From an uncultured Clostridia bacterium (GTDB taxonomy: Bacteria > Bacillota > Clostridia > Oscillospirales > Ruminococcaceae), in NCBI GenBank assembly GCA_947625615.1, contig CANQPB010000005.1, forward strand, positions 1-64,000: 64,000 nt of DNA, read 5' to 3'. The translations under genes and the position numbers were made by a program. Of this stretch, positions 3,637-54,219 are shown one piece after another (the stretch's first letter is position 1; the number at the start of each line of letters is the position of its first letter). Under the pieces are notes generated by a model. It made no database searches, was not told where the DNA came from, and saw only the letters and a program-made list of their open reading frames with translations.

Positions 3637-3650
3637 TAGGCAAAACCGAA

Positions 3651-3699
3651 ACAGATGTCAGAAGCCGGATATCGGAATTTCAAGGCGCCGCATGCGGCG
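3651..3699 (-). repeat. Heptad/hairpin intergenic repeat, copy 1
   Basis: Read leftward, this segment begins with the palindrome CGCCGCATGCGGCG (3699-3686). It then carries CCTTGAAATTCCGATATC and 7-bp units CGGCTTC, TGACATC and TGTTTCG. The unit array is clearly related to three other copies at 20369, 43187 and 51641, but here the hairpin precedes the array instead of following it. It lies between the DUF2500 promoter and spoIVB. Confidence 0.6.
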
Positions 3700-8673: not shown

Positions 8674-8678
8674 TAATG

Positions 8679-9067
8679 ATAAAAGTTTTCGCCGGCCTTT
8701 TTCAAAAGGCCGCGCAGGTCGAGGGGCGCGAAGCCCCTCGTCGCGCTCCGCAGAGCGCGAAATCTCCCCGGAGCGGGCCGAGCAGGCACGCTCCGGGATA
8801 ATGCGAAAAAAACGCAGGAGGGGGAGCCCGAAACAGTCCGGTGGACTGTTTCGGGCCGGGGGAACCCTCGTCGGGGGTTCCCCCGGCGAGGCGCCACCGG
8901 TGCCTCGCACACGGAAAGGTGCGCGGGGAAAACCATGTTATAGAAACAGACTGTAAGTTTGGCCGGACCCGTTGGGCTCGGCAGCAGCTGCGCGCAGCCG
9001 GTGCGACAACCGCCAAAGCCCGAGCGCAGCGTGTTGTCCCCGCTTTGCCGAGCGCAAGCGCGGCAAA
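8679..9067 (+). repeat. Compound hairpin repeat, family 1, copy A
   Basis: This 390-bp gene-free stretch is a row of inverted repeats. Stems lie at 8694-8711, 8720-8740, 8741-8760, 8767-8797, 8826-8856 (14-bp arms GCCCGAAACAGTCC), 8856-8886 (12-bp arms CCGGGGGAACCC) and 8886-8908. A unique segment follows, then a closing TTGTCCCCGCTTTGCCGAGC module. The same ordered stems occur at 23871-24173 (opposite strand) and 53528-54070. Arm sequences differ between copies but pairing is kept. Open frames across it are GC-driven and differ between copies, so it is judged non-coding. Confidence 0.85.
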
Positions 9068-9072
9068 ATAAA

Positions 9073-20244: not shown

Positions 20245-20368
20245 TCAGCGTTTTTCACGAGATTTTTCAAATACGCCTGCGTTTTTGCACATTTACGCCA
20301 AAGCGGGAGGCGTATTCGTTCCGCACACATTATCGGTAATATTCAGATATGCCGCCGCAGACGACACC

Positions 20369-20440
20369 TCGAAACTCTAACTTCTAATATCTGACTTCTA
20401 TCTTCTTGATGTGGCCGTTAGGCCACATCATGGGCCACAT
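20369..20440 (+). repeat. Heptad/hairpin intergenic repeat, copy 2
   Basis: After GAAACTC come four 7-bp units, TAACTTC, TAATATC, TGACTTC and TATCTTC. Then comes TTGATG and the hairpin GATGTGGCC-GTTA-GGCCACATC (20408-20429). A second GGCCACATC follows at once. The repeat ends seven bases before the -35 box of the next gene, between the divergent leu promoter and the AlkZ-related gene. Confidence 0.75.
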
Positions 20441-21999: not shown

Positions 22000-22024
22000 A
22001 CATTTTTGATTTTTGGAGGCTTCA

Positions 22025-22765
22025 ATGAAAAATTTACGCCCGATTCTTTTGGCGGCGCTCGCTTCTGCGCTGGCGCTTTGCCTTTCGTCCTGCAGGGTGG
22101 GCCCGCGTGAGGATTACCCCGCCGGCCCCGAAAATATCCCGCCCGACACGTTAAGCACCGAGGCCGAGATAACCGGGGCGGAGCCCGATGCTCCAGATGA
22201 AACATACGCTACCGAGCCGGTTCCGGTCTTACCGCCCGAAAACCTGCAGACCGCGCAAAACCCCGGCTGGAATGCCGAAGAAGAAACCGGCACCGAGCCC
22301 GTCGAAGCCGATGAAGACACCGTCCCGGCGGAGGACGATGCGGAGTCCGAGCCGGTGATTGCCGATTACGACGAGATCGAGCCGATCGACATGTGGGCGG
22401 AGATTTCCCTGAACGTGCGTTACGGGCCCTCCACCGACTACGAATCCCGCGGAACCATCGCCGAGGGGCAGAAGGTAACCGCAATAGGCGAGGCCGACGG
22501 CTGGTACGTCATAGAATTCCGCTCGCAGCCCGGCTTTGTCAGCGGAAGATATCTTTCGGAAAATCCTCCCGAAGAGGAAAACTCGGAAGACGAAACCGCC
22601 GAAGAGGAAACTCCCGAGGAGGAAACCGTTGAGGAGGAATCCTCCGAAGACGGGACGGCCGAAGACGGGATCGGCGAAGGGGAGATTGCTGAAGACGGGA
22701 CGGCCGAAGATGAAACCGCCGGGGGCGAGGCCTCGGCGCCCGACGATACTGAAAATCCCGAATAA
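22025..22765 (+). CDS. Lipoprotein with an SH3b domain and acidic repeats
   Basis: The N-terminus is a lipoprotein signal (positive MKNLR, hydrophobic stretch, LSSC lipobox at about residues 19-22). An acidic, Pro-rich linker leads to a bacterial SH3 (SH3_3) domain at about residues 123-177 (SLNVRYGPSTDYESRGTI, then GWYVIEF and GFVSGRYL). Such domains bind peptidoglycan or other wall ligands. The last 65 residues are low-complexity Glu/Asp/Thr repeats. GGAGG lies five bases before ATG 22025, so the in-frame extension to 22013 is excluded. It is 25 bp from the acetyltransferase gene and is probably co-transcribed with it. Confidence 0.85.
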   Translation: MKNLRPILLAALASALALCLSSCRVGPREDYPAGPENIPPDTLSTEAEITGAEPDAPDETYATEPVPVLPPENLQTAQNPGWNAEEETGTEPVEADEDTVPAEDDAESEPVIADYDEIEPIDMWAEISLNVRYGPSTDYESRGTIAEGQKVTAIGEADGWYVIEFRSQPGFVSGRYLSENPPEEENSEDETAEEETPEEETVEEESSEDGTAEDGIGEGEIAEDGTAEDETAGGEASAPDDTENPE

Positions 22766-23870: not shown

Positions 23871-24173
23871 TTTTGTTTGCCTCGCTTACGCTCGGCAAAG
23901 CGGGGACAATCCCCTGCGGGGTTTTTCCCGCACCCTTTTCCGTGCTGCGAGGCGCCTCGGGCGCCTCGCCGGGGAGACCCCCGGCGAGGGTCTCCCCGCG
24001 AAAAAACTGTCAACCGGACAGTTTTTTCTCCCCGTCCTGCGCTTCGCTTCGCATTACCCGGAGCGCGCCTGTTCGGCTCGCTCCGGGGAGATTTCGCGCT
24101 CTGCGGAGTGCGACAAGGGGCACCGCCCCTCGACCCCGCGGCCTTTTGAAAAAGGCCGGCGAAAACTTTTATC
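23871..24173 (-). repeat. Compound hairpin repeat, family 1, copy B
   Basis: This is copy B on the opposite strand. Read leftward it starts with ATAAAAGTTTTCGCCGGCC and keeps the stem order of copy A. Stems with positions are 24000-24028 (GAAAAAACTGTC paired with GACAGTTTTTTC), 23971-23997 (GGGGAGACCC paired with GGGTCTCCCC) and 23947-23969 (GCGAGGCGCC paired with GGCGCCTCGC). It ends with the TTGTCCCCGCTTTGCCGAGC module also found at the end of copy A. It follows the terminator of the gene ending at 24228, in the same orientation as that gene. It accounts for most of the 500-bp gap. Confidence 0.85.
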
Positions 24174-24177
24174 ATTT

Positions 24178-29052: not shown

Positions 29053-30228
29053 ATGGAAAAAATCAGACTGGGAATCATAGGCATCGGCAACATGGGTTCC
29101 GGCCACGCCACAAGAATTAAGGCCGGCAATTGCCCCGACTTCGTTTTGACGGCGGTCGCGGATATAAATCCCAAGAGACTGGAATGGGCCGAAAGGGAGC
29201 TCGGCGACGGGGTAAAAAGGTTCGACAGCGCCGAAGATATGCTTTCCTCGGGGCTCATCGACGCCTGTATAGTTGCGGTGCCCCATTACGATCACCCGAA
29301 ATATGTCATCGAATGCCTTAAAAAGGGCATACACGTCATGTGCGAAAAGCCCGCCGGCGTATACACAAAACAGGTTCGCGAGATGAACGAGGAGGCGAAA
29401 AAGCACCCCGACGTCGTCTTCGGAATGATGTTCAACCAGCGCACAAACTGCGTCTACAGAAAGATGCGCGAGCTTGTTCAGTCGGGAAAATACGGCCAGA
29501 TCAGGCGTACTAACTGGATAATCACCGACTGGTACCGCCCGCAGGCCTATTACAATTCGGGCAGCTGGCGCGCGACATGGTCGGGCGAGGGCGGCGGAGT
29601 GCTTTTGAACCAGTGCCCCCACAATCTTGATTTATGGCAGTGGATCTGCGGCATGCCGAAAAAGGTATCCGCCCACATGCAGTTCGGCAAGTGGCACGAC
29701 ATCGAGGTTGAGGACGACGTTTCGGTCTACTGCGAATATCCCAACGGCGCGACGGGCGTTTTTGTAACCACCACCGGCGACGCCAAGGGCACCAACCGCT
29801 TCGAGATTCAGCTTGACGGCGCAAAGCTTGTCGCCGACTACAGCGGCCTCACCGTCCTTGAATTCGACGTTTCGGAGCCGGAATTCTCCCGCACGAACAC
29901 CGTTCCCTTCGGAAATTTAAGCGCCCACAAGGCGGATATCGAGCTTGACGGCGAAAATCCCCAGCACGACGGAGTGCTGCGGGCGTGGGGCGGCGCCATT
30001 TTAAGGGGCGAGCCCCTTGTGGCCGACGGCAGCGAGGGTATCCGCGGGCTCAAGCTTTCAAACGCCATACATCTTTCGGCGTGGCTCGGCCGCGACATAG
30101 ACCTTGACGAATTCGACGAGGATCTGTTCTATAGCGAGCTTCAGAAGCGCGTCGCGACAAGCCGCAGAAAGACAAACATAGTCGAGCAGGTGGCCGACAC
30201 CTCCGACACCTACGCCGGAAACAGATGA
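29053..30228 (+). CDS. Gfo/Idh/MocA family oxidoreductase (first paralog)
   Basis: This 391-residue NAD(P)-dependent sugar or inositol dehydrogenase-like protein has the Rossmann motif GIIGIGNMGSGHA and the catalytic EKP motif (HVMCEKPAG). Its C-terminal beta-sheet domain contains EGGGVLLNQCPHNLDLWQWI, where the His is the usual general acid/base. It resembles the next gene over its full length. AAGGAGG lies upstream of the ATG. The stop overlaps the next start (ATGA). Confidence 0.9.
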   Translation: MEKIRLGIIGIGNMGSGHATRIKAGNCPDFVLTAVADINPKRLEWAERELGDGVKRFDSAEDMLSSGLIDACIVAVPHYDHPKYVIECLKKGIHVMCEKPAGVYTKQVREMNEEAKKHPDVVFGMMFNQRTNCVYRKMRELVQSGKYGQIRRTNWIITDWYRPQAYYNSGSWRATWSGEGGGVLLNQCPHNLDLWQWICGMPKKVSAHMQFGKWHDIEVEDDVSVYCEYPNGATGVFVTTTGDAKGTNRFEIQLDGAKLVADYSGLTVLEFDVSEPEFSRTNTVPFGNLSAHKADIELDGENPQHDGVLRAWGGAILRGEPLVADGSEGIRGLKLSNAIHLSAWLGRDIDLDEFDEDLFYSELQKRVATSRRKTNIVEQVADTSDTYAGNR

Positions 30229-31397
30229 GCGGCGCGTTAAGGCTCGGCATAGTCGGAATAGGCGGCATAGGCTCGGCGCATTTCAACTGCGTCGGCTCGG
30301 GAAAAATTAACGGCATGACCCTTGCCGCCGTCTGCGACATAAAGCCCGAGAGGCTCGATTACTGCAAGGGAGTTTACCCCGATGTTCCCCGCTTCGACGA
30401 CGTCGATAAGATGATATCGAGCGGCCTTATCGACGCCCTGCTGATAGCGGTGCCCCACCCTTTGCATGCAAAAATCGCAATAAAGGCGCTTTCGGCGGGT
30501 CTTCACGTTCTCACCGAAAAGACGGAAGACATAACCGTCTCGGCGGCTAAAAGGCTCAACGAGGCCGCCGAGGCCTCGGGCAGGGTCTTCGGGATAATGT
30601 TCAACCAGAGGACTAACCCGATTTACCGCAGATGCCGCGAGATAGTGAGATCCGGCGAAATCGGCGAGCTAAAGCGCTCGGTGTGGATAATCACCAACTG
30701 GTACCGCACGCAGTACTACTACGATTCCGGCGAATGGCGCGCAACGTGGTCGGGCGAGGGCGGGGGAGTGCTTTTAAATCAGGCGCCCCACAATCTCGAT
30801 CTCTGGCAGTGGATATGCGGCATGCCCTCCGAGATAACCGCCTTCTGCGACGTCGGCAAGTGGCATGACATCGAGGTCGAGGACGACGTCACCATCTTCG
30901 CAAGATATCCCGGCGGCGCCACCGGCACGTTTATCACCTCGACCGGTGAGCTCCCCGGCACCAACCGCCTTGAGATCACCGGCAGCCGCGGCAGCGTAGT
31001 CGTCGAGCAGGGAAGGCTTATTGAAAAGCTCCTTAAAACCGATGAGCCGACGATCCGCCGGGAATCGAAGGAGAGCTGGCCGAGCGTTGCCCCCGAGATA
31101 AAGGTGTATGCCCCTAAGGATTCCGGGGCGGCGCACGCGGGAATACTCCAGAATTTTGCAAACGCAATTCTTTACGGCGAGGAGCTTTTGGCCCCCGGCG
31201 CCGAGGGGATAAACGAGCTCAGCATATCCAACGCGGCGTATCTTTCCTCCTGGACGGGAAAGAGCGTTAAGATACCCTTTGACTGCGGCGAGTTTGACAG
31301 GCTTCTTGAAAGCCGCCGCTCGGCGAGCGCCCCTAAGGAGGGCGGCTCCCCGCAGACACACGGCGATTACAGCGAGAGGTGGCAGGTGAGGTTTTAA
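30225..31397 (+). CDS. Gfo/Idh/MocA family oxidoreductase (second paralog, EKT variant)
   Basis: The 390-residue paralog of the preceding gene has GIVGIGGIGSAHF as its dinucleotide motif and the same EGGGVLLNQAPHNLDLWQWI segment. The family EKP motif is changed to EKT (HVLTEKTEDIT), keeping the catalytic Lys but losing the Pro that shapes the loop. The duplication with divergence suggests either two oxidation steps, an oxidation/reduction pair on the same sugar, or a heteromer. It is the last gene of the cluster. Confidence 0.9.
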   Translation: MSGALRLGIVGIGGIGSAHFNCVGSGKINGMTLAAVCDIKPERLDYCKGVYPDVPRFDDVDKMISSGLIDALLIAVPHPLHAKIAIKALSAGLHVLTEKTEDITVSAAKRLNEAAEASGRVFGIMFNQRTNPIYRRCREIVRSGEIGELKRSVWIITNWYRTQYYYDSGEWRATWSGEGGGVLLNQAPHNLDLWQWICGMPSEITAFCDVGKWHDIEVEDDVTIFARYPGGATGTFITSTGELPGTNRLEITGSRGSVVVEQGRLIEKLLKTDEPTIRRESKESWPSVAPEIKVYAPKDSGAAHAGILQNFANAILYGEELLAPGAEGINELSISNAAYLSSWTGKSVKIPFDCGEFDRLLESRRSASAPKEGGSPQTHGDYSERWQVRF

Positions 31398-43153: not shown

Positions 43154-43186
43154 AGTAAATAAAAATTCATGAGCGTCAGTTCCGTT

Positions 43187-43246
43187 TGAAATTCCGATAT
43201 CTGACCTCTGACATCTGTTTTCTTGATGCGGCCTTTAAGCCGCATC
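43187..43246 (+). repeat. Heptad/hairpin intergenic repeat, copy 3
   Basis: TGAAATTCC is followed by GATATC and the units TGACCTC, TGACATC and TGTTTTC, then TTGATG. The hairpin GATGCGGC-CTTTAA-GCCGCATC spans 43225-43246. Compared with copies 2 and 4 the stem has changed on both arms (TGGCC/GGCCA to CGGC/GCCG) and still pairs. It lies between the convergent purB and lipoprotein genes. Confidence 0.75.
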
Positions 43247-43250
43247 AAAA

Positions 43251-49098: not shown

Positions 49099-49430
49099 AA
49101 AAGTTTTCGATCAAACCTTTTTCAAAAGGTTTTTTTAACCTGTCTCACCCCCCCTGCCCCCTCTCCCTCGCGAAGCGTGGGGGTCTCCACCCCGTCACCC
49201 GGCCGTTCACCTTGCGGCGAACGGCGCGACCCCTCCCCTCGAGGGGAGGGGTGTGTTCCCAAAGGCTTGCGCAAAATCGTCGCCGGGTTCGGCACTTTCG
49301 GTGCTGTGCATATCGAAAGTGCTGATTTTATATGCTGTGCCTCTGCAACTGCAAGGGAGAGTGCGTCCCCTATAAGCGCGGCGGCCGGGCAGGCCGATCA
49401 TCTCTGTAAATCCCCCCAAGAAGTGTCAAA
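49099..49430 (+). repeat. Compound hairpin repeat, family 1, copy D (divergent)
   Basis: It starts directly after the stop with AAAAAAGTTTTCGATCAAACC, the same opening as copies A-C, but its first stem is AAACCTTTT/AAAAGGTTT instead of GGCC-based. A perfect 24-bp palindrome (arms ACCCCTCCCCTC) lies at 49229-49252. The part from about 49256 to 49370 (TTCCCAAAGGCTTGC, GGCACTTTCGG, CATATCGAAAG, GCCTCTGCAACTGCAAG) matches the tail of copy C. The middle stems of copies A and B are absent. No gene is supported in this gap. Confidence 0.7.
49113..49137 (+). terminator. Terminator of the SPFH operon
   Basis: AAACCTTTT (49113-49121) and AAAAGGTTT (49124-49132) pair perfectly and run into a T tract. 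It is at the same time the first hairpin of repeat copy D. Confidence 0.9.
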
Positions 49431-51630: not shown

Positions 51631-51640
51631 AGGGGAGTTA

Positions 51641-51705
51641 CGCCTTGAAACTCTAACTTCTAACTTCTAACTTCTATCTTCTTGATGTGGCCTGATGGCC
51701 ACATC
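51641..51705 (+). repeat. Heptad/hairpin intergenic repeat, copy 4
   Basis: CGCCTTGAAACTC is followed by three exact TAACTTC units and TATCTTC, then TTGATG. The hairpin GATGTGGCC-TGAT-GGCCACATC spans 51684-51705. This is the most regular copy. It lies 17 bp before the -35 box of the xylanase promoter. Confidence 0.8.
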
Positions 51706-51721
51706 ACGCTTAAATAGCTCC

Positions 51722-53527: not shown

Positions 53528-54070
53528 AAAAGTTTTCGCCGGTCTTTTCTAAAAGTTGTGCAAGGCCGTGTAAAGCATAACGCAGGAAAGTTCGGCAAAG
53601 CCGGTGTTTGCGTTAGCAAACCTGAGGCAGGCGACGCGATTAAAACTCTTTGAGCACGAGCAGTCTGTCGTTTTTGACTGCGAAGTGCGAAAAGAAAGTT
53701 TTAACGCTTCGCGAAGAGCCGAAGCGGCTTTGCAGCGCAACGCAAAACTAAAGTGCGATTTTGCAGAATTCTTTCGCGTTGCGCTCCGCAGAGCGCGGAA
53801 CCTCCCGGAGTACGCCGAGCAGGCGTACTCCGGATAATGCGAAGCGAAGCGCAGGACGGGGAGAAAAAATCTGTCCGGTGGACAGTTTTTTCGCGGGGAG
53901 ACCCTCGCCGGGGGTCTCCCCGGCGAGACGCCACAGGCGTCTCGCACAATTCCCAAAGGTTTGCTGCAAAGTCGCAATCGGGCTCGGCACTTTCGGCGCG
54001 GTGCATATCGAAAGCGCTAAATTTTTACGTTGTGCCTCTGCAACTGCAAGTGGGGCGTCCCCTTGCTCAG
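53528..54070 (+). repeat. Compound hairpin repeat, family 1, copy C
   Basis: It opens with AAAAGTTTTCGCCGG directly after a stop codon. After a 230-bp segment not found in the other copies it resumes the family order. Stems are 53805-53833 (CCGGAGTACGCC paired with GGCGTACTCCGG), about 53863-53892 (with one bulge), 53895-53921 (GGGGAGACCC/GGGTCTCCCC) and 53923-53945 (GCGAGACGCC/GGCGTCTCGC). The tail from 53947 is the module shared with copy D. It fills most of the 790-bp gap; no gene is supported in it. Confidence 0.85.
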
Positions 54071-54219
54071 CGACAGTCAGCCGTCACTGAGATGCCTGAT
54101 AAAAATCCTCCCTCACCCCAAGCCTCCCTTAGCCCCGGAGGCCTTATTTTTTTGCCCTATACGCTCAAAAACCGGCAAAATTTACAATAAACTCTTCGAT
54201 AACTTGTAAATCATATCAA

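Follow-up and report, generated by a model that had tools for sequence, protein, structure and literature searches.

Fixed-order hairpins with exchangeable parts: a modular intergenic repeat family of a Clostridia genome whose covarying stems probably reflect DNA-level processes

When copies of a repeat carry stems that differ in sequence and nevertheless keep pairing, has the folded form been selected? Functional RNAs are usually proved by covariation, and a 64,000-nucleotide stretch of DNA from an uncultured Clostridia bacterium (hereafter the window) raises this question with three copies, A, B and C, of a compound hairpin repeat. The initial annotation quoted stems of these copies, all of which are present where it placed them, and judged that paired changes at four of them were hard to explain unless the folded form was selected. 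It left three options for the nature of the element: a structured RNA tail, a DNA hairpin array, or a non-autonomous mobile element. Our reading, which we hold to be reasonably probable, is that the element is an intergenic repeat of palindromes, modular and probably non-autonomous, which works in the manner of BOX elements, its stems being kept paired by exchange at the DNA level and by templating of one arm on the other.

Copy A extends over 8675..9072 on the forward strand, with the start motif AAAGTTTTCG at 8682, and reads in that direction as a row of hairpins: the start-motif hairpin hp1 (GGCCTTTTTCAAAAGGCC, 8694..8711); hp2 (8720..8740), in one of its three main versions in the host genome; hp3 (8742..8759); hp4 (8767..8797), whose spacer occurs in both orientations among copies; hp5 (8802..8816); hp6 (8826..8856), which is the large stem of the initial annotation and has here the GCCCGAAACAGTCC version; hp7 (8857..8885), in the GGGGGAACCC version; hp8 (8886..8908); and hp9 (8923..9043), whose arms lie at about 8923-8934 and 9034-9043 and whose loop houses a separate module, M, at about 8936-9033. 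An end hairpin, TTTGCCGAGC..GCGGCAAA, follows at 9044..9067. Copy B (23871..24176) lies on the reverse strand and copy C (53528..54075) on the forward strand; in the latter the start hairpin is a variant, module N (~200 bases) lies between hp1 and hp3, and the tail contains a module that is also found at 49271-49355. A fourth, partial copy (49100..49355, forward strand) consists of the start motif with hp1, followed by other repeat modules.

The window holds further repeats. A second family, made of AACTTCTAACTTCTATCTTCTTGATGTGGCC-like runs that end in a small hairpin, stands at 20364-20430, 43181-43247, 51640-51706 and 3649-3683, and similar TTAGAAGT runs lie within an element at another locus (L200). 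Nine overlapping copies with a 15-base period occupy 22566-22730, inside the open frame 22013-22765, and look by eye like an acidic repeat. Two 300-base stretches in neighbouring ORFs (29416-29715 and 30585-30884) are 74% alike, and these ORFs are probable tandem gene paralogues.

How large is the family? Copies were counted with a strict start motif, AAAGTTTTCGN{3,7}CTTTTTCAAAAG, which a pattern scan places 74 times in the host genome (45 forward, 29 reverse); the same pattern read backwards has 0 places there. The window contributes three of the 74, namely copies A and B and the short one that starts at 49100, and copy C belongs to the family, as annotated, as a copy whose variant start, AAAAGTTTTCGCCGGTCTTTTCTAAAAG, is missed by the strict pattern, so that it is absent from all counts based on the 74. 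A, B and C were also detected as repeats by a repeat search within the window, and similarity matches in the host genome number 66 for copy A and 57 for copy C, these being pieces and not copies. The repeat consists of eight to ten hairpins in constant order and lies between genes; in the copies listed, set side by side and judged by eye, the order is fixed as hp1-hp8 and then hp9 with the end hairpin. Individual hairpins exist as alternative versions across the host copies: hp6 comes in GCCCGAAACAGTCC, GAAAAAACTGTCC and TTGCAAAAACAGTCC types, and examples of hp4 arms are GGAGCG, GGAGTACGCC and GTAGGACGCC. Some copies also house the separate modules M (about 100 bases) or N (about 200 bases). 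Relatives of the same genus gave 85 fuzzy start matches, of which 73 were retained as true starts; by eye, among the matches listed, they retain the hairpin order and have species-specific stems. The element is a high-copy modular repeat of local palindromes in fixed order, with one boundary at AAAGTTTTCG; in some relatives this motif bounds both ends. Unusual arrangements occur as well: two adjacent copies (L035; G000:C44:9623 and 10615) have an unusual inserted module in common and differ in both arms of hp4, and in Neglectibacter timonensis (L165, 4578-4928) five start hairpins stand in tandem with a period of about 81 bases, apparently between two genes.

The copies fold strongly. The 74 own copies contain 5.1 strong hairpins each, whereas their mononucleotide shuffles contain 0.2 and 116 control windows from this genome 0.4, and the median folding z of the copies (10 shuffles per sequence) is -7.3 on the sense strand and -7.2 on the other, compared with -0.5 and -0.7 for the two strands of 80 control windows. 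Paired changes were assessed in the 26 of the 74 own copies that are complete, hp7 being intact and hp6 standing at its standard distance, over six helices laid out from one copy (53 pairs, 1357 cells) and against 500 shuffles that ignore relatedness. The pair count omits hp1, whose two versions are badly gapped in the alignment, and the lower register of hp6 slips by one between versions, which lowers the pairing score. In these 26 copies 95.7% of the 1357 stem cells are paired (shuffled mean 87.7), both sides have changed in 108 cells (on average 38.2 in the shuffles, which leave kinship out of account), and the covariation score is 0.206 (0.079 in shuffles); 0 of 500 shuffles reach any of these three values. 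When the partners are slid by 1-3 columns the score is at most 0.065 and the both-sided cells are at most 19. Pairs with both-sided changes number 14 of 53, against a shuffled mean of 12.2, with 25 of 500 shuffles reaching 14, and the count of further pair types in the same copies is not above shuffles, 465 of 500 having reached it. Only one long-range helix was tested, CTCCCC/GGGGAG around hp4-hp5; none of its pairs has changed on both sides, and it does not differ from its shuffles. The paired changes reported between copies are thus borne out in the local stems. As to their form, the changed cells are 108 both-sided and 9 one-sided (summed over the 26 copies), and with so few one-sided changes they look like block replacement and not like stepwise compensation.

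That the folded form must have been selected does not follow from such changes, because exchange at the DNA level or template switching can give them without selection, and here the changes come largely as whole-hairpin alternatives, with spacer inversions in a few copies and an interior swap at one locus. Template switching is described in PMC8604942 as homogenising arms and inverting spacers, and is proposed in PMC8794818 as a source of both-sided changes in hairpins. Here, whole hairpins exchange as blocks between copies. The spacer of hp4 is inverted in four copies, which have TGCTC where the common form is GAGCA (41 copies by pattern), and that of hp6 is inverted in one (CCACCGG in C18_20498, with arms otherwise as elsewhere); a further locus, L153, has an inverted-type hp6 spacer, CCGCCGG. 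In the four hp4 copies and in C18_20498 the inverted spacer is flanked by arms that are identical or nearly so. An inversion present in few copies could descend from two old versions. One copy, C4_96502, is an hp6 chimera: its left arm comes from one version and its right arm from a different one, so that the lower stem is broken. Module M, seen by eye between the matching arms of three hairpin versions, was found 12 times in the sequences examined; the pairing score of its flanking arms is at least 7 in six of the 12 cases, as do 1.8% of shuffles, and 3 or less in two.

The interior swap was seen between a locus of another species (L077, G007) and its own-genome counterpart at C6:77484-77746. 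The two elements have common boundaries, and their flanks are 95.4% identical over 1318 bases and 92.1% over 216 bases; the interior of L077 is 74% identical over 131 bases to the orthologous own copy and 93.5% over 138 to the copy at C6:72305, ~5 kb from the orthologous one. This replacement is a single case from the one locus that was aligned through: flanking genes of relatives were taken from 28 loci, 13 of which had at least one tblastn match to own stretches, and nine loci (ten pairs) were compared by blastn.

If the element were instead a structured RNA, either a 3' tail or an independent transcript, its fold would be selected and its stems maintained by compensatory changes. We regard this as quite unlikely, even though the strong covariation of local stems and a hairpin order that is, by eye, constant across species are both what it would give. 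Mismatches within stems bear on it directly: a selected RNA is expected to have G-T mismatches on the sense strand clearly above A-C mismatches. A strand-symmetric count over distinct hairpins of 74 own, 73 same-genus and 134 other-genus copies gave 30 G-T to 20 A-C at the strict setting (p 0.20), which speaks against such an RNA, and 134 to 93 (p 0.008) and 223 to 160 (p 0.0015) at two lenient settings, which speak for it, composition alone predicting a ratio of 0.91-1.06. Among the subsets the same-genus copies lean most to G-T (58 to 37, p 0.04; 32 to 14, p 0.011). For comparison, terminator-like hairpins have 140 G-T to 113 A-C, and the acceptor and T stems of 13 tRNAs 10 to 1. The G-T excess of the family is a slight lean, far weaker than that of tRNA; since terminator-like hairpins have a similar ratio, the test has little power against RNAs of terminator type. 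At the strict setting, Watson-Crick positions make up 96.4, 98.6 and 98.9% of the stems in the three copy sets, with a finder that favours good stems.

Strand preference is likewise divided. Fold energy is lower on the sense strand in 58 of 74 own copies, in 14 of 16 from the same genus and in 84 of 119 from other genera, as against 37 of 80 controls, and the sense fold contains more G-U. This would agree with an RNA, as would the median z of the 16 same-genus copies, which is lower on the sense strand (-8.5, and -7.1 on the other); only in this set is it clearly so, the values for other genera being -5.1 and -5.5. The lenient G-T excess and the same-genus z thus lean towards a sense-strand RNA. 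As an argument for the RNA reading, strand asymmetry was nonetheless set aside: the median z is alike on both strands in the own and other-genus copies, and only the 16 same-genus copies depart from this.

Several observations weigh further against an RNA. In the 60 bases upstream of the 74 copies no promoter-like conserved block was found beyond about -8, where conservation begins; beyond -12 it amounts to at most 0.14 bit, and TATAAT-like words are about equally frequent on the two strands (34 and 38 of 74). Copies A and B are placed past a terminator-like hairpin of the upstream gene (according to a terminator scan for A, by eye for B), and the long-range helix, as described above, lacks both-sided changes. 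The comparison with Rfam that the initial annotation had proposed yielded no family matching the elements: there were 0 matches at gathering in the 64-kb window, and at E up to 1 six loci gave three matches, all in L261 and none in elements (TPP, tRNA, and Thr leader below gathering score). Finally, of the 72 copies with an upstream gene call, 40 have that gene in their own sense and 32 have it in the opposite one. The RNA reading is weak on this evidence, and of the three options first offered the structured RNA tail, with this mixed orientation, fits worst; the DNA hairpin array comes second and the non-autonomous mobile element fits best.

Where, then, do the copies reside? With genes called by simple ORF scoring, 72 of the 74 strict copies overlap no called gene and two overlap a called ORF. 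The 65 copies with both neighbours lie between convergent genes in 23 cases, divergent in 16 and codirectional in 26, the 54 gene pairs of the window being 8, 7 and 39, respectively. Placement between transcription units (convergent plus divergent) is therefore found for 39 of 65 copies versus 15 of 54 window pairs (Fisher p 0.0005). Such placement is what one would expect if the hairpins were selected as DNA, as sites for a nucleoid protein, gyrase or recombination, or as two-way terminators or insulators at the boundaries of transcription units. The near-perfect palindromic stems, usable on either strand, agree with this, as does hp6, which in many of the copies listed has by eye the A-tract/hairpin/T-tract make-up of a two-way terminator. 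Against it, a scan of copy A for terminator-like hairpins gave no hit at hp6, A and B are already preceded by a terminator-like hairpin, the 16 copies between divergent genes stand where a terminator is unneeded, and copy A has no match in 10 of 24 other genomes of the same genus. We consider selection of this kind rather unlikely, if somewhat easier to accept than selection of an RNA. Beside the gene of copy A, a related element was found in one other genome (L277, G004) among 14 of 20 loci, own included, a synteny too loose for calling empty sites; the search at the B locus gave no usable syntenic pair.

The distribution of the family is patchy. Similarity to copy A was found in 17 of 41 genomes, a count that includes the host, and in four of the 17 it amounts to a single short match; a query with the B locus matched 25 of 31 genus genomes, many through its genes only. 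The strict motif occurs in 8 of the 148 genomes searched from the family and in 2 of the 398 from the phylum, the host being counted in both, and as it misses carriers of variant starts, the copy-rich G023 scores zero in the family scan. The named collection contains at least 116 stretches with the repeat, mostly from Clostridia metagenome bins and isolates (Neglectibacter, Acutalibacter, Anaerotruncus); among the matches listed, Cloacimonadota and Rikenellaceae are represented by a single record each. The viral collection contains 2 stretches.

As to the ends of the copies, within 1000 bases of the own copies an inverted end is found downstream in 2 of 74 and upstream in 0. In other genera, 13 of 134 starts have a strict motif facing inward within 700 bases and 0 outward (7 distinct pairs at 6 loci); at distances of 700-5000 bases, for which a relaxed motif was used, inward pairs are not over-represented (10 inward, 14 outward, 36 direct). 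The genome G381, which comes from the same family and contains 145 strict motifs, has 9 inward, 1 outward and 2 direct neighbours over 20 stretches searched with the relaxed motif; its inverted repeats extend outward as GCAAAAGTTT..CTTGTCAAGAAA; one of the units consists of nothing but a 46-base palindrome. In that genome (L389-L408) the outer repeat GCAAAAGTTT..CTTGTCAAGAAA around the AAAGTTTTCG ends carries a TTGACA word read outward, and it may mark a larger mobile unit or -35 boxes that point outward. No clear target-site duplication was found in the flanks inspected by eye, and no clean empty site was seen. No mobilising enzyme was found in what was covered, namely Y1 and, by eye for an autonomous transposon within inward pairs, the ORFs of three loci whose pairs lie 1.3-1.8 kb apart, among which no transposase was noted. 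The palindromic, extragenic and high-copy character of the family would suit a repeat of REPIN/BIME type whose mobility depends on a RAYT (Y1) transposase, and Y1 matches do occur in 16 of the 41 genomes searched; with a Pfam model, however, there are 0 in the host genome G000 and none in the copy-rich same-genus genomes G003, G007, G010 and G023. RAYT mobilisation was thus rejected for the host, and such an origin seems to us highly improbable for the family. With ends, duplications and enzyme as described, and with RAYT, which was tested, absent from the host, we do not claim membership in a named family.

For the BOX-like, probably non-autonomous repeat that we favour, the following course may be proposed. 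Copies would spread through a trans-acting activity that uses the AAAGTTTTCG end, and would persist between transcription units, where they are observed, presumably because harm is least there. Recombination between copies would swap hairpins and interiors, as seen at one locus and in one hp6 chimera, and during replication an arm would template its partner, so that arms are matched anew, in keeping with the spacer inversions and the near-perfect arms. Covariation would then be a by-product of these DNA processes and not of selection on an RNA fold.

Strong covariation in this family need not imply a functional RNA. The host carries dozens of copies, and several related species add to them; both arms of the hairpins change together, and the orientation, position and mismatch pattern of the copies are unlike those of a strongly constrained RNA. 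The family would allow one to measure how often DNA hairpin exchange or template switching mimics the proof by covariation. In these gut Clostridia the repeat can also occupy much of an intergenic gap, and it may disturb assembly and the prediction of non-coding RNAs.

Among the papers listed by searches of the open-access literature, a scope that leaves out subscription journals and preprints, none described this family; several known systems resemble it in part. PMC3049150 describes BOX (boxA-boxB-boxC), RUP and SPRITE of Streptococcus pneumoniae as strongly base-paired and intergenic, and BOX as modular; these repeats are enriched between convergent genes, undergo nested repeat insertions, have few ties to gene function, and are proposed there as non-autonomous parasites. 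The present family is like them in these respects and unlike them in that its eight to ten hairpins are all different, follow a set order and individually occur in alternative versions; no target-site duplication was seen. It is like REP, BIME and REPIN in being a high-copy extragenic mosaic of palindromes, and differs from those with RAYT by its much longer ordered array and the lack of a Y1 match in the host. IS elements that insert into REP palindromes, according to PMC1525189, use a repeated palindrome as insertion site, as the loops of hp7 and hp9 seem to be for module M, although this module measures about 100 bases. The TM-ECO intrastrand triplex motif repeats of PMC4666352 are likewise intergenic, without strand bias and tied to local instability; in the present family, which differs in sequence and host group, the purine / pyrimidine / purine order (AAAAG..CTTTTTCAAAAG) was noticed in hp1 only and would by pattern make it a candidate triplex. 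The changes described here also resemble template-switch mutations in inverted repeats, for which PMC8794818 and PMC8604942 report single-event changes of both arms, homogenised arms and inverted spacers; the DNA studied there was that of RNA genes and of yeast coding regions, here it is a bacterial repeat family. It is a tentative possibility that exchange of DNA hairpins and template switching here generate, on a large scale, covariation of the kind taken as proof of RNA, with loops at which further modules dock, so that a self-growing stack of palindromes mimics a conserved RNA. The element falls within a known kind of repeat, and its modularity is unusual.
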